Source of the DNA: an uncultured Pseudomonadota bacterium
GTDB lineage: Bacteria > Pseudomonadota > Gammaproteobacteria > Steroidobacterales > Steroidobacteraceae
Assembly: GCA_937920275.1 (NCBI GenBank)
Contig: CALGVD010000018.1
Location: 1 to 64,000, forward strand
DNA length: 64,000 nucleotides
Reading direction: 5' to 3'
The translations under genes and the position numbers were made by a program. Shown one piece after another: positions 17,539-28,331 of the stretch; the stretch's first letter is position 1, and every line of letters starts with the position of its first letter. Below the pieces are notes generated by a model. The model did no database searches. It saw only the letters and a list, made by a program, of their open reading frames with translations, and was not told the DNA's origin.

Positions 17539-20500
17539 ATGACCCTCTCACGCTGGGGCATCCAGCATCCGCTGCCCTCGGTGCTCGCATTCGTGCTGCT
17601 CACGATCGCCGGGCTCTGGGGCCTCCACAAGCTCCCGATCTCCGATCTGCCCGATGTCTCGCTGCCCACGATCGAGGTGGCCGTAGGCCTGCCGGGCGCC
17701 ACACCTTCCATCCTCGAGACCGATGTCACGCGCAAGATCGAGGATGCCGTCGCGAGCATCGCCGATATCAAGAAGATCAACTCCGCGATCACCGAAGGGT
17801 CTTCGATCACCCGCATCGAGTTCGAGCTCGGGCGCGACATCGACGCCGCGCTCGATGAGGTACGCGATGCGGTGATGCGTGCCCGTCGTGAACTGCCGGC
17901 GGACATCGACGAGCCGGTCGTACAGCGCGCGACGCTGGTCGGCGGCACGCTGATCACCTACGCCGTCTCCTCGCAGCGGATGCCCTTGGACGAGCTGTCC
18001 TGGTTCGTGGACGACTCGGTCACCAAGGCGATGTACGGCTTGTCCGGGGTCGGTTCGGTGACCCGTTCCGGCGGCGTGCAGCGCGAGGTCCGGGTGGACC
18101 TGCGCGCCGAGGCGTTGCAGTCGCTCGGCATGACGGCGGGTGCGGTGTCGCAGCAGTTGGCACGGCTACAACTCGAGCGGCCGGGCGGCCGCACCGAAGC
18201 CGGTGGCGCGGAGCAGTCGGTACGCACCGTCGCCGTCGTGCGCAACGCCTCGGAGCTCGCGGATTATCCGATCCCGCTGCCCGAAGGCCGCTCGGTCCGG
18301 CTCTCCTCGATCGCGACCGTGACCGACGGCACGGCGGAACCTCGCGCCTCGGCGCTGCTCGATGAGCAGCCCGTGGTCGGTTTCTCGATCCGGCGCACCC
18401 GTGGCTCGAGCGAGGTCGCCGTGGGAGAGGCGGTACGCGTGGCGGTCGCTGCGCTGCAGGTGGCGCATCCGGAGATGGTGTTCACCGAAGTCGATTCGAG
18501 CGTCGAGGAGGCCAAGGCCTCGTACAACTCCTCCATGATCATGTTGCTCGAGGGGGCGTTGCTCGCGGTCCTCGTCGTCTGGTTCTTCCTGCGCGATTGG
18601 CGTGCCACCTGGATCTCGGCGATCGCGCTGCCGCTGTCGGTGATCCCGACCTTCGCCGTCATGCATTGGTTCGGCTTCTCGCTCAATCTGCTGAGCTTGC
18701 TGGCGTTGGCGGTGGTGGTCGGCGTCCTGGTCGACGATGCCATCGTCGAGGTCGAGAACGTCGCACGCCACCGCGCGATGGGTAAGACGCCGATGCAGGC
18801 GGCCATCGACGCCACCGACGAGATCGGCATCGCCGTCATCGCGACCTCTGCGACGCTGGTGGCGGTGTTCGTGCCGGTCGCATTCATGCCCGGCGTCACC
18901 GGCAAGTTCTTCCGCGAGTTCGGTTGGACCGCAGCGGCTGCGGTGCTGTTCTCGTTGTTGGTCGCCCGGTTGCTGACACCGATGTTGGCAGCCCGCTTCA
19001 TGGGGCATCTACCGGCGTCGACCGATGATTCGCCGCTGATGGCGCGCTATCTGCGGTGGGTGGATCTCGCCTTGCACCACCGGCGGATCGCGCTCGGTCT
19101 CGCACTCTTGACCTTCATCGCTTCACTCGCCCTGATCCCGCTCATCCCGAAGACCTTCCTGCCCACCACCGATGCGCAGCGGGTGATGCTGCAGGTCGAA
19201 CTGCCGCCTGGCGCACGCCTCGCTGATTCCCTCGCCGTCGCGGCGGAGGTGCGATCGCGCCTGCGCAAAGGTGTGCCCGAGATCAAGAGCGTGTTCACCA
19301 CCATCGGCGGTGATATCGACGCCTCCATGGGCGGCGGTCTCACCTTCCCCGAGGTCCGCAGGATCGTGTTGACCCTCGAGTTCACGGCGGACCGCAAGCG
19401 CCGCACACCCGAACTCGAGAACGCGGTGCGGGCGCTTTTGAAGGAGATGCCCGGTATCCGCACCCAATTCACGGCGGGTGGCCCGGGCGATCGGTTGACG
19501 CTCGGTCTCACCGGCAAGGACTCGGAGCTGCTCGCCAACACTTCGCGGGAACTGGCTGCGGCCATCCGCTCACTGCCCGGGCTCGGTTCGGTCAGCACCT
19601 CCGCGGCGCTGTTGCGACCTGAGGTCGTCATCCGCCCGGACCCGGCGCGCGCGGCCGACCTCGGCGTCTCGACCGTCGACATCGCCGATGCGGCGCGCAT
19701 CGCCACGAGCGGTGATGTACGCCAACGGCTCGCCAAGCTCAACCTCGCGGAGCGTCAGGTGCCGATCCGCGTGCAACTTGCGGGCGCTGCGCTCACCGAT
19801 CCCGCGGTGCTCGGCCAGCTGCGGGTGCCGGGCGCGCGCGGCCCGGTGGCCTTGGCCGCCGTCGCCGAGATCCGCGCGGGCAGCGGCCCTGCGCGCATCG
19901 ATCGTATCGACCGCGAGCGCAATGTCACGGTCACCGCCGAGCTCAATGGCAGTCCGCTCGGGGATGTGATGTCGAAGGTCATGTCGTTGCCGGAGGTGCG
20001 CAACCTGCCGGCCGGTGTGCGCATCGTGCCCGCAGGCGACTCGGAGGCCTTCGTCGAGCTGTTCGTCGGCTTCGCGTTGGCGATGCTCGCCGGTGTGGTC
20101 GCGGTCTATGTGGTGCTGCTGCTGCTCTTCCACAGCGCGACGCTGCCGCTCGTGATCCTCGCGGCCGTGCCGCTCTGCGGCGGTGGCGCCTTCGGCATGC
20201 TGCTGCTCACCGGCAACGCCTTGTCGCTGCCGTCCCTGATCGGTCTCTTGCTGCTCACCGGCATCGCCACCAAGAACTCGATCCTGATCGTCGACTACGC
20301 CGTGCTCGGTGAACGCGCGGGATTGCCGCGTGACCAAGCGCTCATCGAGGCTTGCCGCAAGCGCGCGCGTCCGGTGATCATGACCACCATCGCGATGGGC
20401 GCCGGCATGCTGCCGATCGCTCTCGGATTCGGTGCCGACGGCAACTTCCGCACACCGCTCGGCGTCTCGGTGATCGGCGGACTCGTCACCTCGACGCTGC

Positions 20501-20631
20501 TGTCGTTGGTCGTGGTGCCTGCGGCGTATTCTTTGGTCGCCGATGTCACCGAGCGCTTGCGCGCCCGGATGGGGTGGGCGCCGCGTGCCCACGCAGCGGG
20601 TTCGGTTGTCCTTGAGCGGGATGGGCGCTAG
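17539..20631 (+). CDS. RND multidrug/solute efflux pump permease (AcrB/MexB superfamily)
   Basis: A 1030-residue HAE-type RND transporter, a proton-driven exporter with twelve membrane helices and two large periplasmic loops. The first helix is followed by the porter domain (LPDVSLPTIEVAVGLPGATP). The second helix bundle carries the family motif GVLVDDAIVEVENVARH, with the aspartate pair of the proton relay, then FVPVAFMPGVTGKFFREF; the second half repeats the fold up to residue 1000. The exported substrate cannot be told. The last 85 codon-level bases (20495-20579) occur again, identical, at 21791-21875, after the next gene; see the repeat entries. Confidence 0.94.
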   Translation: MTLSRWGIQHPLPSVLAFVLLTIAGLWGLHKLPISDLPDVSLPTIEVAVGLPGATPSILETDVTRKIEDAVASIADIKKINSAITEGSSITRIEFELGRDIDAALDEVRDAVMRARRELPADIDEPVVQRATLVGGTLITYAVSSQRMPLDELSWFVDDSVTKAMYGLSGVGSVTRSGGVQREVRVDLRAEALQSLGMTAGAVSQQLARLQLERPGGRTEAGGAEQSVRTVAVVRNASELADYPIPLPEGRSVRLSSIATVTDGTAEPRASALLDEQPVVGFSIRRTRGSSEVAVGEAVRVAVAALQVAHPEMVFTEVDSSVEEAKASYNSSMIMLLEGALLAVLVVWFFLRDWRATWISAIALPLSVIPTFAVMHWFGFSLNLLSLLALAVVVGVLVDDAIVEVENVARHRAMGKTPMQAAIDATDEIGIAVIATSATLVAVFVPVAFMPGVTGKFFREFGWTAAAAVLFSLLVARLLTPMLAARFMGHLPASTDDSPLMARYLRWVDLALHHRRIALGLALLTFIASLALIPLIPKTFLPTTDAQRVMLQVELPPGARLADSLAVAAEVRSRLRKGVPEIKSVFTTIGGDIDASMGGGLTFPEVRRIVLTLEFTADRKRRTPELENAVRALLKEMPGIRTQFTAGGPGDRLTLGLTGKDSELLANTSRELAAAIRSLPGLGSVSTSAALLRPEVVIRPDPARAADLGVSTVDIADAARIATSGDVRQRLAKLNLAERQVPIRVQLAGAALTDPAVLGQLRVPGARGPVALAAVAEIRAGSGPARIDRIDRERNVTVTAELNGSPLGDVMSKVMSLPEVRNLPAGVRIVPAGDSEAFVELFVGFALAMLAGVVAVYVVLLLLFHSATLPLVILAAVPLCGGGAFGMLLLTGNALSLPSLIGLLLLTGIATKNSILIVDYAVLGERAGLPRDQALIEACRKRARPVIMTTIAMGAGMLPIALGFGADGNFRTPLGVSVIGGLVTSTLLSLVVVPAAYSLVADVTERLRARMGWAPRAHAAGSVVLERDGR
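20495..20585 (+). repeat. Direct repeat, left copy (3' end of RND pump gene)
   Basis: Bases 20495-20579 are identical to 21791-21875, and with one mismatch the match runs to 20585/21881. The left copy is the functional 3' end of the pump gene; offset to the right copy is 1296 bp. The repeats enclose the sterol-desaturase-family gene and a PuuB-like gene fragment, an arrangement that looks like an insertion or recombination scar. Confidence 0.95.
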
Positions 20632-20667
20632 AATATTGCGTCATCTCCACCGATCGGGAGTACGAGT

Positions 20668-21678
20668 ATGCCAGACGAGCTTCCGACCGACGGCCCGCTG
20701 ACACAGATCGTCACAGCCATACGGGACGCGATCGCGGATAACCTTCCGCGCGATCTGACATGGCCGATCCTGCTGCTGACCCTCATCATCGCGATCGGCA
20801 TCTGGTTTCTGCGGAGCGGCCATGGCTCGAAGGACGCGGATGGACGCGAGCGCCATGCGGGTCTCGTCGAATTTCTTCTGCCGCGCAGGATCTACACCCA
20901 CGTCTCCGCTAGGGTCGATATCTGGCTCTACGTGGTCGACCGTGTGATGCGCCTTTTGTGGGCGCCGACGATTCTGGTGACGGTTGCGCCTTGGACAGAG
21001 CAGACGATGCTGTCGACACTCGCTGCAGCATTTGGCAGCGGCCCGGCGCTCGCATCGAATTACGCCTGGATGCTGCTCTACAGCCTCTTCATCCTGCTCT
21101 GCTACGACTTCATCTTCTTCCTCATTCATTACTCCGAGCACAAGATCCCTGCGCTCTGGGCGATCCACAAGGTGCACCACTCGGCGGAGGTGCTCACACC
21201 TTTGACCCGTTATCGGGAGCACTTCCTCGAGGCGCCGCTGTACGCGTTCGGCGCCGCGCTGAGCTTCGGTTTCGCCGCCGGCGTCTTCTCCTGGTTCTTC
21301 GAGGACAGAATCACGCAGGCGACGCTGTTCAACATCGGGTTTTTCGCGCTGCTGTTCGGATTGACTGGATCGTTCCGTCACCACCACGTGGCTTTCCACT
21401 ACCCGCGCTGGCTTTCGAAGTGGCTGCACAGCCCCGTCATGCATCACATCCACCATAGCTATCTGACGCAGCATTGGGACAAAAATTTCGCGGCGGTCAC
21501 CAGTATCTTCGACCGGCTGTTCGGCACGTTGTACATACCGGTGAAGGACGAGTACACGCCGTGGGGCCTCGGTCCGGCGACGCAGGAGCAGTACCGGACC
21601 TTTCGGCAGAACGTCATAGGACCGTTCCGCGACTGGAATGACATGGTGAAGACGCCGCGGATTACGCGACCGGATTAG
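20668..21678 (+). CDS. Sterol desaturase / fatty-acid hydroxylase family membrane protein
   Basis: A 336-residue integral-membrane di-iron oxygenase of the sterol desaturase/fatty-acid hydroxylase superfamily. The histidine clusters are FLIHYSEHK, HKVHHSAEVLTP, FRHHHVAFHYP and MHHIHHS, about eight ligands in the order used by this family, set among four or five hydrophobic segments. Members hydroxylate or desaturate sterols, carotenoids, ceramides or alkyl lipids; the substrate here is unknown. GGGAG 7 bases before the ATG supports the start. The gene lies between two direct repeats of the RND gene end. It also uses codons such as ATA, AGG and ACA more freely than its neighbours, as far as one can judge by eye, so acquisition by transfer is likely. 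Confidence 0.88.
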   Translation: MPDELPTDGPLTQIVTAIRDAIADNLPRDLTWPILLLTLIIAIGIWFLRSGHGSKDADGRERHAGLVEFLLPRRIYTHVSARVDIWLYVVDRVMRLLWAPTILVTVAPWTEQTMLSTLAAAFGSGPALASNYAWMLLYSLFILLCYDFIFFLIHYSEHKIPALWAIHKVHHSAEVLTPLTRYREHFLEAPLYAFGAALSFGFAAGVFSWFFEDRITQATLFNIGFFALLFGLTGSFRHHHVAFHYPRWLSKWLHSPVMHHIHHSYLTQHWDKNFAAVTSIFDRLFGTLYIPVKDEYTPWGLGPATQEQYRTFRQNVIGPFRDWNDMVKTPRITRPD

Positions 21679-21697
21679 TGGTCTGGTGCGTGTGGCC

Positions 21698-21792
21698 TGA
21701 AGCAGACCCCGCAGCCGGTGCCACAGCATCTCGAGCACGAGGTCAGGGCGGTGCAGCGCTTGGCCGCCCGGCAAGTCTCGGTGCGGGATGCG
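21698..21792 (-). pseudogene. Fragment of a PuuB-like FAD oxidoreductase gene (3' end)
   Basis: This stretch aligns with the end of the FAD oxidoreductase gene at 27037-27131, with about 13 mismatches in 92 bases. Read on the minus strand it gives PGGQALHRPDLVLEMLW where the intact gene gives PGGQALRRPALVLAMLW. The stop codon is lost, and the homology ends abruptly at 21792, where the copied RND gene end begins. Only about 30 codons survive. It is a remnant of a paralogue or a diverged copy, not a gene. Confidence 0.85.
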
Positions 21793-21881
21793 CTGCTGTC
21801 GTTGGTCGTGGTGCCTGCGGCGTATTCTTTGGTCGCCGATGTCACCGAGCGCTTGCGCGCCCGGATGGGGTGGGCCCCGCG
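21791..21881 (+). repeat. Direct repeat, right copy (duplicated RND gene 3' end)
   Basis: This copy matches 20495-20585, with the first 85 bases identical. It is out of context: there is no pump gene upstream of it. It abuts the PuuB-like fragment, with only CG (21791-21792) common to both, and ends 18 bp before the stop of the convergent amidohydrolase gene. Confidence 0.95.
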
Positions 21882-21899
21882 ACGAACTCCGCTGCCGTC

Positions 21900-23624
21900 C
21901 TAACGCCGGGAGAAGACCTCGCGCCCGGCGAGGTAGGTCGCGTCGACCTTGAGCGCCTTGAACGAGGGATCCACCGGCTGTGGTACGCGTCCGCTGAGGA
22001 TGACGAAGTCGGCCCATCTGCCGGGACTGATCGAGCCGATCTCCGTCGCCCACTCGGTCGCCTCGGCCGGCGCACGGGTGTACGCCAGTAGGGCTTCCTC
22101 GAAGGACAGGGCCTGCTCGGGGAACCAAGGCTTGCCTTCGGCGAAGCCGAAAGGACTGGTGCGGAACATCGCATCGGCGATCTGCGTCAGCGGATCGAGC
22201 GGTGAGGTCGGATAGTCGGCGCTGAAGACCAGCGGAACACCGGCCGACAGCATGGATCTCCAGACATAGGCATCGCCTTGTCGACGGGGCCCGAGTCGGC
22301 TCGGGACATACCCGATGGCATTGGTGCAATGGTTGGGTTGCATCGAGGCCAGCACGCCCGCCTGCTTGAAACGTCGCACATCAGCCAGCGTGACGACCTC
22401 GATGTGTTCGATCCTGTTGGGCAGTCGCGGCCGGGTCGCCGCCGCGGCCTCGAAGGCATCGAGCGATGCGCGCACGGCGGCGTCGCCGATCGAATGCACC
22501 GCGACCGGCAGTCCTGCCCCATTGATCGCCTGGATCGTCGCCGCGAGTTCGTCCGGCGCCATGATGTACTCGCCGCGCCATCCCGGCTGATCGGCATAGT
22601 CCTCGAGCATCACGGCGGTCCTCGCCGAGAGCACGCCGTCGTTCATCAACTTGACGTAACCGACGGTCAGCAGCGGACCGGAAGCGGCCGTCTTGCCAGT
22701 CGCGGCGACACGGCCCGCGACCTGCTCTCGCAGATCGATGATGTCGCGCACAGCCGCAGCCGGAGACAGATCCTCGCCCGCAGACCAGCCCTGTCCGTAC
22801 CACACCCGTAGCGAGGGCCGCGCTGTCTCGACGATATGGAGATAGTCCTGCAGATCTCCCATCTGGTGCAGGCCCGTGATGCCGACGCTGTTGGCGTAGG
22901 CCTGCATCTTCACGAGACCCTCCCGGCGTCGGTCCACATCGCGGGGCGGGATCATGCGGCTCACCAGACCCATGGCGCCCTCCAGCAGGATGCCGGTCGG
23001 TTCCCCGGTCCGCTCATCGAGGACGATCTCGCCGCCGGGCGGCACCGGGGAGGACGCCGTGACACCTGCGACGGCCAGCGCCTTGGAGTTGACCCAGGCG
23101 TAGTGTCCGTCGATGTGCCGGAGGAACACCGGTCGATCCGGCACGACCGCATCGAGCATCGCGCGGTCGGGATACCTGCCATCGGACAGCGTGTGGTCCC
23201 AGTAGCCTCCGGTCAGCCATTCGCCTTCGGGGAGGGTCCGGTCGGCCGCGACGATCAGTCGAAGCCACTCCGTCTTGTCGGCGATGTAGGAAAGGTCCAC
23301 GCCGCTCACGAGCGGCGCATTGCCGCTGACATGCGAGTGTCCATCGATGAAGCCGGGTGTGATCGTGCGTCCGCCGGCGTCGATGATGCGGGTGTCAGGC
23401 CCTGCGGATCTGCGGACCGTCGACCCATCGCCCACCATGACGATCCGGCCTCGGCTCACGGCGAACGCTTCGGCGCGCGGTCGCGCGGCGTCCGAGGTGT
23501 AGACATCCGCGTTGACGACGATGAGGTCGGCGGGCGGGGGCGCACCGTCCGCGGGCACCGCCGCTGCGGAGCCAGCCAGTGCAGAGATCGCCGTGATCAG
23601 GAGTGCTGCGAGTCGCGAAGTCAT
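21900..23624 (-). CDS. Secreted metal-dependent amidohydrolase (YtcJ-like, amidohydrolase 3 family)
   Basis: A 574-residue amidohydrolase with a signal peptide (cleavage near AAAVPA). Family features in order: DGHSHV (two metal-binding His) around residue 98, YVKLMNDGVLSARTA mid-chain, AVHSIGDAAV, NRIEHIEVV and FSADYPTSPLDP with the conserved Asp, ending in a beta-sandwich (PGRWADFVILSG). Such enzymes hydrolyse amides or related C-N bonds; the substrate is unknown. The export signal suggests that it acts in the periplasm. It lies 30 bp downstream of a TonB-dependent receptor gene on the same strand, so the pair probably imports and processes the same compound. Confidence 0.88.
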   Translation of the reverse strand: MTSRLAALLITAISALAGSAAAVPADGAPPPADLIVVNADVYTSDAARPRAEAFAVSRGRIVMVGDGSTVRRSAGPDTRIIDAGGRTITPGFIDGHSHVSGNAPLVSGVDLSYIADKTEWLRLIVAADRTLPEGEWLTGGYWDHTLSDGRYPDRAMLDAVVPDRPVFLRHIDGHYAWVNSKALAVAGVTASSPVPPGGEIVLDERTGEPTGILLEGAMGLVSRMIPPRDVDRRREGLVKMQAYANSVGITGLHQMGDLQDYLHIVETARPSLRVWYGQGWSAGEDLSPAAAVRDIIDLREQVAGRVAATGKTAASGPLLTVGYVKLMNDGVLSARTAVMLEDYADQPGWRGEYIMAPDELAATIQAINGAGLPVAVHSIGDAAVRASLDAFEAAAATRPRLPNRIEHIEVVTLADVRRFKQAGVLASMQPNHCTNAIGYVPSRLGPRRQGDAYVWRSMLSAGVPLVFSADYPTSPLDPLTQIADAMFRTSPFGFAEGKPWFPEQALSFEEALLAYTRAPAEATEWATEIGSISPGRWADFVILSGRVPQPVDPSFKALKVDATYLAGREVFSRR

Positions 23625-23654: not shown

Positions 23655-26600
23655 TCAGGGCGTATAGCTCAGCCCGAGGAAGAAGAACCGGCCACGCGGA
23701 CTGACTGGCCAAGCCAATCGCGTGGAGAACGGCTCCTCGTCGCCGACGTTGTTGACGCCGCCAAAGAGGTTCAGCGACTCGCTGAACTCGTAGCTCGCGT
23801 TGACATCGAAGATCGTCACGGCATCGAAGAACCCTGCGTCGCCGTAGAGCGGCTGCTTGCCGTTCAGGCCACGGACGTCCTGGATCTCAGCGACCGCTTG
23901 CTTGCTCTGGTAGTTCATCTGCACGCCGAACCCGAACGGTCCCCGCTCCCAGGTCAGGCTCAGGTTGCCGCTCCATTCGGGAAACTGGATCTCCTCCACC
24001 TCGGGGTCGACATCGGCGATGTTGAGCGGGTTGAAGAACCGATCGAGCTTCGCCTGATGCGAACCGACCAGCCGGACCCCGAACAGGTTGCTGCCCACGG
24101 GGAAGCGGTAGTTCACCGCGAAGTCGACGCCCGCCGCTTCCAACCGTGCGAAGTTGAGCAGGCCGGAATCGAGCGACCGCAGACCGCCGTCGGCACGCCG
24201 GGCGAACTGGTCGCAGAAGGGGACGTTGGGGTAGGACGAGGAATCGAAGCACCCCTGGAGGACGTCGTCGGCCGAGACGCTCGCGATCGCGTCGTCGATC
24301 GTCACCTCCCAATAATCGGCGGTGAGCGAGAAGCCCTCGAGGAAGCTCGGCGCGAGCACCAGACCTGCCGTGAAGGTCTCCGCTGTCTCCACTTTGAGGG
24401 ACAAGTTGCCACCCGAAGTGCCGGCGAAACGCCCGGTGAGGGGGTTGTTCCAGATGTAACTGTTACCCGCTCCCAAGATGTTGGCGGCGGGTACGCCCGC
24501 GGCCTGCAACGCGGCGACGCAGTTGGCTTGGCGGGCGGCGGTGCCCAAGGTGACATTGACCCTGTCGCAGGGATCGGCGGTGGCCGCGATGAAGATCGGC
24601 AGCTTCGGGTCGAAGAGTTCCGAGATGTTGGGTGCCCGCACCGCTTCCGAGATCGTCCCGCGCAGCGTCAGCCCCTGGATCGGCGCCCAGGAGAGACCCG
24701 CCTTCCAGGTCGTCGTCTCGCCCAGGGTGGAGTAGTCCGCCATCCGGATGGCGCCGTCCAAGGTCAGCTCCTCAGCGAACGGCCGGCCGCGGAAGATCGG
24801 CAGACGCACTTCGGCGAACACGTCGGTCACATCGTAGCCGCCGCCCGTGTCGAACTGCTGCACGTTGTCGATCGATAGGAACGAGTTCACCCACGGATCG
24901 ATGCTCTTGGCGAGCACGCCCGGCGTGAGCGATGTCCCTTCGGGCAGGATGCCGAGCGTCAGCGGATCGGGTTTGTTCTTGCTCGACTCATCGCGATACT
25001 CGATGCCGGCAGCGTAGCCGATCGGTCCGTCGAGCACGGACTGCAGGACCTCGAACTCGCCCGCCGCAGTCGCCGAGAACACCATCTGTTCGACCACGAG
25101 TTTGTCCCGGAGGTTCGCCGTGACGAAGTCCTGCGCCTCCTTGCTGGCGGCGTAGACGCCGAAGGGGTTGAGCGGCTTGCACTGCCCGTCGCCCGGCGTG
25201 AATGTGTAGTAGCGGTTGGAGAAGTAGTCCCCGTTGGCGAAGCCCGCGTTGCCGGTGAAGTAGTCGATCTCATAGAACGCGTTGGGATCGAGGTCCGACC
25301 GGCAGACGGTCTGGCCATTCGGGGCCCGGACCGCATCCATGGCCGCGAACAGGCGGTCGAGGTAGACGCCCGAGGTCTTGGAGGTGTTGGTGAACTGCCC
25401 GTAGTTCGCGGACACCTCGAACTGGTGCCCGTCGATGGGCTCGAACTGCACACCCGCCACCACCCGGGCGGTCTCGCGGGTGTAGAAATCGGGGTTGTCA
25501 TCGCTGATATCGAGCGGGTCCTTGGTCAGCAACAGGTAGCCCTGGCGGTTCGCCACGGGCAGTAGTTGCGTCGGCACGAACGGATTTTCGGGATAGATGA
25601 CCAGCGTGTCCCAGTAGGTGTCCTGCTCATCGAACCGGCTCGACTTGCCGTTGACATACTTCGCCTCAAAGAAGAGTTTGGTGCGGTCGTTCAATTGGAA
25701 ATTCGAGTTCAAGTTGACCGAGACCCGGTCCGTCTCTGGGTAAAGGGTGTCACGGTCGAAATACGACCATGCGCCGCCCATGCCCCCGATGCTCCAGAGG
25801 CCGTTGAGGACGAGCCCGTCCTGGAAGACGCTCAACGAACCATCCGGGTTGGTGACCCAACAGCCGGCGAGGAAGCTCGTCCGTCCTGCCTGTGATTCCT
25901 GACAATCGATGATCCCGTTGTTGTTGATGTCGACACCGTAGTCCCGCGTACGCGACGCCGTGTTGAACCCTCCCGGTGCGATGGATCCGGCTTGAGAGGT
26001 CAGCCAGAAGCGGGCATCGTTGATCACCGCGCGCGGCGGCGCATTCGGGTTGGTCAAGAAATCCGGGTTCGTCTGGGTGATGGCGATGCCGTTGTTGCGT
26101 GACCAGGACCGATCGCCGTGGGTGATGCTGGAATCCTCTTCGACGGACACGGCGAGGACCACATTCCCGCGGCCATCAGCAAAATTGTCGCCGAACAGCA
26201 CATCGACGGCGAAGTTCTCGGCATCCCCTTGGCCTGACACACCGCCGCGGGCATCGATCCTCATGCCCTCGAAATCGTCCTTGAGGACGAAGTTCACCAC
26301 GCCGGTCACCGCGTCCGATCCGTACACCGCCGAGGCGCCACCGGTGGTGACCTCGACCCGTTCGACGAGGGCGCGCGGGATGCTGCCGATGTCGACGGCC
26401 TGGCTGCCGCGGAAGCCTGCGACATGCCGACGGCCGTTGACCAGCGTCAGGGTTCGTGCGCTGCCCAGGCCGCGAAGGTTGAGCGCGTTGGCGCCTGTGA
26501 GCGAATTTTCTGCCGTCTGCGAAGCGATCAGCGCCGGGATGTCGTTGACGATCTCGGCCAGATTGATCTCGCCCGACAGGCGCAGATCAGACGCGTCCAA

Positions 26601-26765
26601 GAACTGCACCGGCGTCGATGCCACGACATTGGGGTCGGTAGGGATGCGCGATCCTGTGACCACCACCTCCTGCAGTCCGCCCGAGTCTTGGGCGGTCGCG
26701 AACGGCGCTCCAGCAGCCAAAACGCCCACGACACTCAAACTGATGACGGAGATCGGATTGCCCAT
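23655..26765 (-). CDS. TonB-dependent outer-membrane receptor
   Basis: A 1036-residue outer-membrane active transporter. It has a signal peptide (first 25 residues, cleavage near ATAQ), a TonB-box-like region GLQEVVVTGSR, a plug domain (NALNLRGLGSARTLTLVNGRR, YGSDAVTGVVNFVLKDDFEG) and a large beta-barrel ending in FFFLGLSYTP. The plug sequence is of the oligomer/peptide/aromatic-uptake type common in Caulobacter and Xanthomonas relatives rather than a classical siderophore receptor. GGGAGG precedes the ATG. Together with the downstream secreted amidohydrolase it forms a two-gene operon; 270 bp of AT-rich sequence upstream holds the promoter. Confidence 0.93.
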   Translation of the reverse strand: MGNPISVISLSVVGVLAAGAPFATAQDSGGLQEVVVTGSRIPTDPNVVASTPVQFLDASDLRLSGEINLAEIVNDIPALIASQTAENSLTGANALNLRGLGSARTLTLVNGRRHVAGFRGSQAVDIGSIPRALVERVEVTTGGASAVYGSDAVTGVVNFVLKDDFEGMRIDARGGVSGQGDAENFAVDVLFGDNFADGRGNVVLAVSVEEDSSITHGDRSWSRNNGIAITQTNPDFLTNPNAPPRAVINDARFWLTSQAGSIAPGGFNTASRTRDYGVDINNNGIIDCQESQAGRTSFLAGCWVTNPDGSLSVFQDGLVLNGLWSIGGMGGAWSYFDRDTLYPETDRVSVNLNSNFQLNDRTKLFFEAKYVNGKSSRFDEQDTYWDTLVIYPENPFVPTQLLPVANRQGYLLLTKDPLDISDDNPDFYTRETARVVAGVQFEPIDGHQFEVSANYGQFTNTSKTSGVYLDRLFAAMDAVRAPNGQTVCRSDLDPNAFYEIDYFTGNAGFANGDYFSNRYYTFTPGDGQCKPLNPFGVYAASKEAQDFVTANLRDKLVVEQMVFSATAAGEFEVLQSVLDGPIGYAAGIEYRDESSKNKPDPLTLGILPEGTSLTPGVLAKSIDPWVNSFLSIDNVQQFDTGGGYDVTDVFAEVRLPIFRGRPFAEELTLDGAIRMADYSTLGETTTWKAGLSWAPIQGLTLRGTISEAVRAPNISELFDPKLPIFIAATADPCDRVNVTLGTAARQANCVAALQAAGVPAANILGAGNSYIWNNPLTGRFAGTSGGNLSLKVETAETFTAGLVLAPSFLEGFSLTADYWEVTIDDAIASVSADDVLQGCFDSSSYPNVPFCDQFARRADGGLRSLDSGLLNFARLEAAGVDFAVNYRFPVGSNLFGVRLVGSHQAKLDRFFNPLNIADVDPEVEEIQFPEWSGNLSLTWERGPFGFGVQMNYQSKQAVAEIQDVRGLNGKQPLYGDAGFFDAVTIFDVNASYEFSESLNLFGGVNNVGDEEPFSTRLAWPVSPRGRFFFLGLSYTP

Positions 26766-27035: not shown

Positions 27036-28331
27036 CTAGAACAGGTCCCGCATCCGGTACCACAGCATCGCGAGCACGAGCGCAGGGCGGCGCAGCGCTT
27101 GGCCGCCGGGGAAGTCGTGGTGCGGGATGCGGGCGAAGAGATCGAAGCGCTCGCTCGTGCCGGCGATGGCCTCGGCCAGCAGCTTCCCGGCGATGCCGGT
27201 GAGCGCGATGCCGTGACCGGAGAACCCCTGCAAAAAATAGACGTCGGACTCGAGCCGCCCGAAATGCGGCGCGCGGTTCATCGTGATGTCCACATAGCCG
27301 CCCCAAGCGTGGTCGATGTCGACATCGGCGAGCTGCGGGAACACCCCGAGCATGCGCGCCCGCGTGGCGCGGCGCGTGCCGAGCGGGTCGAGCCCCGAGT
27401 AGCTCACGCGCCCGCCGAACAGCAATCGATGATCGGCTGAGCGGCGGAAGTAATCGATCACCCAGTTGACGTCGGTGACCGCTGCATCGTTGCGGATCAG
27501 CGCGGCGGCACGCTCGGCGCCGAGCGGTTGCGTGGCGACGATGTAGGTGCCGACGCCCATGATCTTGCGCGCGAGCGCCGGCGCGAAAGGGCCGAGCCAG
27601 GCGTTGCCGCAGAGCGCGATGGAACGGCAGCGCACGCGCCCGGCAGCGGTGGTGACTTCGAGCGCGCCCGAGCTGCGTCGATAGGCGAGGGCGCGGCTGT
27701 CCTCGAAGATTTGCGCGCCTGCTCGCTCGGCGGCGATCGCGAGGCCTTGCGTGTACTTGAGCGGATGCAGGTGGCCGCCTAGGCTGTCATAGGTGCCTGC
27801 GATGTAGCGCGCGGAGGCCACCGTGGTGCTCAGCTCCTCGCGCTCGACCATGCGGATGCTGTCGTAGCCGTGCTCCCCATGCAGGGTCGCGACCTCCTCG
27901 CGCAGCTCGCGTTCCTGTCGCGGCTTGATCGCGACATGCATCTGCCCCTCGCGCAGGTCGCAGTCGATGGCGTGGCGGGCGATGAGTTCGCGCTGCAGGC
28001 GCAGCCCTTCGACGGAGATGTCCCAGATGCGTCGTGCGTCGGCGGCGCCGACCAAAGACTGCAGTTTGTGCTGCCCACAGGCGATGCCTGGGATCGCTTG
28101 CGCGCCGCTGCGTCCTGAGGCGCCCCAACCGACGCGGTGCGCCTCGAGCAGCACGACGCGGTAGCCGCGTTCAGCCAGGTACAGCGCAGTGGAGCAACCG
28201 GCGATACCGCCACCGATGACGCAGACATCCGCCTCGACATCGCCCTCCAGCGCGGGGCGCAACGGCTGCGTCGGCGTCGAGGCGGCATACCAGGAATCGA
28301 TGTGCGAGCTCAGATCGCCCCCATGTACCAC
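27036..28331 (-). CDS. puuB: FAD-dependent oxidoreductase, gamma-glutamylputrescine oxidase-like (PuuB)
   Basis: A 431-residue flavoprotein of the DAO family. The N-terminal dinucleotide fold DVCVIGGGIAGCSTALYLAE is followed by LLEAHRVGWGASGRSGAQ, and the C-terminal FAD contacts include YFLQGFSGHGIALTGIAGKLLAE. In the Puu pathway PuuB oxidises gamma-glutamylputrescine to gamma-glutamyl-aminobutyraldehyde with release of H2O2 and ammonia. Its 22-bp overlap with the upstream glutamine-synthetase-like gene and the polyamine genes across the divergent promoter support this role. The start is GTG. A sarcosine or D-amino-acid oxidase activity is the alternative. A decayed piece of a related gene end lies at 21698-21792. 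Confidence 0.85.
   Translation of the reverse strand: MVHGGDLSSHIDSWYAASTPTQPLRPALEGDVEADVCVIGGGIAGCSTALYLAERGYRVVLLEAHRVGWGASGRSGAQAIPGIACGQHKLQSLVGAADARRIWDISVEGLRLQRELIARHAIDCDLREGQMHVAIKPRQERELREEVATLHGEHGYDSIRMVEREELSTTVASARYIAGTYDSLGGHLHPLKYTQGLAIAAERAGAQIFEDSRALAYRRSSGALEVTTAAGRVRCRSIALCGNAWLGPFAPALARKIMGVGTYIVATQPLGAERAAALIRNDAAVTDVNWVIDYFRRSADHRLLFGGRVSYSGLDPLGTRRATRARMLGVFPQLADVDIDHAWGGYVDITMNRAPHFGRLESDVYFLQGFSGHGIALTGIAGKLLAEAIAGTSERFDLFARIPHHDFPGGQALRRPALVLAMLWYRMRDLF

Follow-up and report, generated by a model that had tools for sequence, protein, structure and literature searches.

What placed a single hydroxylase gene between two nearly identical copies of the 3′ end of an efflux pump gene? 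The window analyzed here is the whole stretch of 64,000 nucleotides, and all coordinates count from its first letter. An earlier note on this DNA had described the repeat and had ascribed it either to recent recombination with a circular or donor molecule that bears the same gene end or to an element integrated at a gene's 3′ end. The anatomy of the locus, its counterpart in related genomes, and the divergence of its parts are considered below.

Repeated ends of two neighboring genes

The two copies of the pump gene end, R1 (positions 20495 to 20585) and R2 (positions 21791 to 21881), are identical at 90 of 91 nucleotides. The single mismatch lies beyond 85 exactly matching bases, and the copies start 1296 bp apart; recomputation thus gave exactly the lengths and offset that had been described. 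The window has just one other exact direct repeat of 25 nt or longer, a 27-bp repeat at 54.7 kb that overlaps itself, and we therefore do not attribute R1/R2 to chance. The features of the locus, whose order is R1-FAH-D1|R2-AMH-TBDR-D2, are as follows.

17539-20631, + strand: RND efflux pump gene (AcrB/AcrD/AcrF family), the left neighbor (Pfam ACR_tran, E 7e-217)
20495-20585, + strand: R1, within the functional 3′ end of the RND gene, 5′ of its stop
20668-21678, + strand: FAH, cargo 1, of the fatty-acid hydroxylase / sterol-desaturase superfamily (PF04116, FA_hydroxylase, E 8e-20)
21701-21792, − strand: D1, relic of the 3′ end of the DAO gene, with its stop lost and 8 private changes, mostly amino-acid-changing
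21791-21792, no strand: illegitimate join D1/R2, a 2-bp overlap (CG)
21791-21881, + strand: R2, orphan copy of the RND 3′ end
21900-23624, − strand: AMH, cargo 2, amidohydrolase (Amidohydro_3; PF07969, E 5e-87)
23655-26765, − strand: TBDR, cargo 2, TonB-dependent receptor (PF00593/PF07715)
27036-28331, − strand: DAO, FAD-dependent oxidoreductase, the right neighbor (PF01266, E 2e-70), whose 3′ end (27042-27131) is D2

The Pfam match of the framed gene agrees with its earlier assignment to the sterol-desaturase family. The left copy was likewise correctly called functional and the right one orphaned: R1 lies inside the pump gene, and R2 stands apart from it, although its frame remains open through positions 21882 to 21900 (tail RRTPLPS) to a TAA stop at 21901-21903. 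This stop overlaps that of AMH, an overlap of a kind also seen in relatives between the pump (rnd) and oxidoreductase (dao) genes. Given a frame that runs to its own stop in this position, R2 has the appearance of a native pump gene end that belonged to a second allele, R-AMH. A deletion between R1 and R2 is predicted from the sequence to give a complete pump gene of 1022 residues.

A second direct repeat, which had escaped the earlier note, derives from the 3′ end of the convergent DAO gene. It spans 90 nt at 87% identity and an offset of 5339 (positions 21703-21792 versus 27042-27131). The 8 private changes of D1 are absent from the intact D2 copy and from three relatives. Excision between D1 and D2 was rejected as a way back to a simpler arrangement, since D1 has lost its own stop and the deletion would leave the oxidoreductase gene without one. 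Overall, no coding sequence of either DAO or RND is missing. The sequence of the D1|R2 join has no exact match among viral contigs.

The same spot in related genomes

The comparison sample, with one genome per species, comprised 24 genomes of the genus including that of the window, and 20 besides the window carry both rnd and dao on the contig that was read. The position of the pump gene is conserved across the genus. In 17 of these 20 genomes the site is empty, with the pump and oxidoreductase genes back to back and their convergent stops separated by about −15 to +52 bp. Cargo occupies the spot in just three of the 20, plus the window. In G004, the nearest relative over most of the region, the arrangement is R-FAH-D, with a single copy each of R and D, and its FAH lies at the same location with 91.8% nucleotide identity. 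G004 is collinear with the window to position 21792 and again from 27036, so that D1 is continuous with the FAH-DAO segment of G004 up to the join. The other two occupied sites hold different contents: about 5 kb with several open reading frames in G012 (L025, 5766-10763), and about 1.1 kb in G009 (L042, 7647-8693), where the open reading frames resemble, by eye, a PadR-type regulator and a PspC-like protein. None of the relatives examined carries a second copy of R. A comparison of the kind that the earlier note had proposed for sister strains, made here between species, therefore returned one-copy empty sites in 17 genomes and the gene with one copy in G004, and the pattern that it had named as contrary to its reading, both repeats and the insert in all relatives, did not occur.

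FAH is single-copy in its genome. Its relatives at 58 to 69% amino acid identity come from metagenome-assembled genome records titled Gammaproteobacteria, Halieaceae, Haliea, or Proteobacteria, and the loci of these relatives have no homologues of the window's other genes. Within the genus, the AMH-TBDR pair occurs only in G014, away from the rnd-dao spot, and a short G022 contig carries part of an AMH-like gene. An R-AMH(-TBDR-D) allele standing alone was not found among 196 genomes of the order, the AMH of G014 not being beside rnd.

The match between R1 and R2 stops at 20585, beyond which the variable pump tails of relatives start; the FAH-type tail from 20586 is common to the window and G004. 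Within R1, all 15 informative sites between 20520 and 20582 are like those of G008 and are followed by the G004-type tail. We did not take this pattern as proof of conversion of R1 by R2, because outgroups mostly share the state of the window and G008 at the positions where G004 differs.

Several observations on these genomes stand apart from the question of origin. The RND gene (17539-20585) is a mosaic of pieces nearer G008 and pieces nearer G004, and its flanking genes are mostly nearer G004. In G008 (L022, 4018-8210) the pump operon, consisting of adaptor and RND genes, is broken over several frames, from either a decaying pump or sequencing frameshifts. In G020 (L034) the next cluster gene comes after the pump gene, and neither DAO nor the first glutamine-synthetase-like gene was found adjacent to the pump. 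The G004 contig (CAMAQZ010000023.1, L067) is publicly titled Klebsiella pneumoniae, a title that looks wrong for a contig of the window's own genus.

Origin of the tandem arrangement

From these comparisons, we consider it probable that the window holds, in tandem, two alternative contents of one rnd-dao spot, brought together when a relative's fragment was joined to the chromosome by one homologous and one illegitimate join. The convergent boundary of rnd and dao would be a chromosomal spot that gains cargo now and then. Its alternative alleles would be R-FAH-D, as in G004, and, we infer, R-AMH-TBDR-D. A relative would have supplied a fragment of one of these alleles to a chromosome holding the other, with homologous recombination within a shared neighbor gene (rnd or dao) on one side and an illegitimate join at 21791/21792 on the other. 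The fragment could have recombined directly, by homology-facilitated illegitimate recombination, or could have circularized before a single crossover inserted it; linear uptake and a circularized fragment yield the same product, R1-FAH-D1|R2-AMH-TBDR-D2, which keeps truncated ends of both neighbors inside. In support of this reading, the two stubs derive from the ends of precisely those genes that flank the empty site. ComEC and DprA are present in the genome, but also in most control genomes, which makes them weak support. Two points run counter to it. The excess decay of D1 over R2 is not predicted by a single simple event, unless gene conversion evened out R1 and R2 or the donor already carried D1 as a relic, and the 2-bp overlap is below the usual 3 to 10 bp, although joins without homology also occur (PMC3240628).

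The earlier proposal that a donor molecule with the same gene end recombined here is borne out by the 17 empty one-copy sites, the single copy in G004, and the lack of a second copy in every relative examined. As a description of the event it was incomplete, however: the AMH-TBDR block on the right is also involved and may be the newcomer.

The same tandem order could also arise if an assembler merged two strain variants of a metagenome, R-FAH-D and R-AMH-TBDR-D, in one contig. The genome is in 137 contigs and is probably metagenome-assembled, strain merging could put two alleles of the spot side by side, and 85 exact bases are close to an assembly k-mer length. Yet the overlap between D1 and R2 is just 2 bp, which an overlap-based assembler can bridge only with a read that genuinely spans the join; D1 is decayed and has lost its stop, whereas a strain variant would have an intact dao end; and estimated contamination is 0.59%. 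An artefact of this kind is unlikely. We regard as quite unlikely a replication template switch, in which about 91 bp of the RND end would have been copied as filler during insertion of AMH-TBDR beside FAH. R2 is indeed short, local, and almost identical to R1, and it starts at the 2-bp overlap, but it ends where the RND tails of the alleles diverge, its in-frame stop overlapping that of AMH would be a coincidence for filler, and D1 would be left to be explained. There is only a slim chance that R1/R2 serve as an active reversible switch, in which deletion would drop FAH and leave a complete pump with another C-terminal tail, and conversion would maintain the identity of the repeats while D1 decays.

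A direct repeat of a gene end flanking a cargo gene is the classical look of a cassette or integrative element that a recombinase has inserted with the gene end as its attachment site. For such an element, an integrase in or near it and the same repeats in relatives are expected. The contig carries no integrase, as had been noted: a search for the Phage_integrase family (PF00589) revealed two genes in the genome, both on other contigs (C78 and C92). Moreover, G004 has FAH with a single R and no repeat, and the R-FAH-D1 unit terminates in a truncated piece of a chromosomal neighbor, the relic D1 of a third gene, at a join with a 2-bp overlap, rather than in element DNA. Integration at a gene's 3′ end, the other origin proposed earlier, is thus highly improbable. 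Simple tandem duplication, expected to give the whole inter-repeat unit twice, was rejected, as only gene ends are doubled and FAH is single in the genome, and integration associated with a tRNA was rejected in a window without tRNA genes.

The preferred reading, two stacked alleles of one spot, has known counterparts. Homology-facilitated illegitimate recombination is known from competent pneumococcus, Acinetobacter, and Pseudomonas stutzeri, and from conjugation in Escherichia coli, where illegitimate joins usually have 3 to 10 bp of micro-homology, joins with zero homology are on record, and duplications of target gene ends were ascribed to re-circularized fragments and a single crossover (PMC3240628). 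As in those systems, foreign DNA would have entered the chromosome through one homologous and one illegitimate join: the outer sides of the RND and DAO regions run on continuously with relatives, and the overlap at the join is slightly under the usual range. Unlike in those systems, the window's history is read from the finished product, and both neighbor genes are truncated at the join. In the type VI clusters of Vibrio cholerae, successive displacement of cargo leaves orphan genes, and a process related to homology-facilitated illegitimate recombination has been proposed for it (PMC5361080). The window resembles them in successive one-anchor insertions at one locus and orphaned pieces of earlier contents, but whole immunity genes are retained there, perhaps by selection, whereas here the leftovers are relic stubs and the cargo is metabolic and transport-related. 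Hotspots of gene transfer between core genes (PMC5635113) likewise have cargo that varies within one and the same pair of core genes, as is seen here across the genus with mobility genes not nearby; with cargo in three of 20 relatives and the window, the rnd-dao spot is at most a weak hotspot.

Order of arrival, age, and meaning of the scar

The spacers adjoining FAH differ between the window and G004 at 19 of 58 positions, versus 20 of 190 in the surroundings (P = 1.4e−4, on few bases), and at fourfold sites FAH differs at 32 of 163 (0.196), versus 366 of 2568 (0.143) in the surroundings (P = 0.07). Because FAH has diverged further from its G004 counterpart than the surrounding sequence has, the comparison favors a history of the FAH tract that differs from that of the backbone, with a separate origin in one of the two genomes. 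On this basis FAH-D1 is slightly favored as the second arrival; parsimony points the opposite way, FAH being common to the window and G004 and AMH-TBDR not.

Fourfold divergence between the window and G004 is about 0.14, i.e., about 0.07 per lineage, and the 8 changes of D1 in 96 aligned bp would fit a relic of about the age of these lineages. The 91 bp of R2 contain a single change (P about 0.02 if both had changed at an equal rate). R1 and R2 may have been homogenized by gene conversion, or D1 may have already decayed in the donor. Since either could explain their identity, it gives no date, and we rejected it as a clock: up to the join that it shares with R2, D1 has gathered 8 private changes, a lost stop among them, versus one in R2. 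The earlier claim that the event is recent is weakened accordingly. The locus serves as a warning that a near-identical short repeat does not date an insertion, as the adjoining relic looks much older.

Nothing about the biology of the cargo genes is out of the ordinary, and the feature is an ordinary, yet unusually readable, recombination scar of a kind already known. It offers one natural sequence showing how a spot without a mobility gene would stack cargoes, with the join and the leftovers still readable and one parental allele surviving in a sister species.
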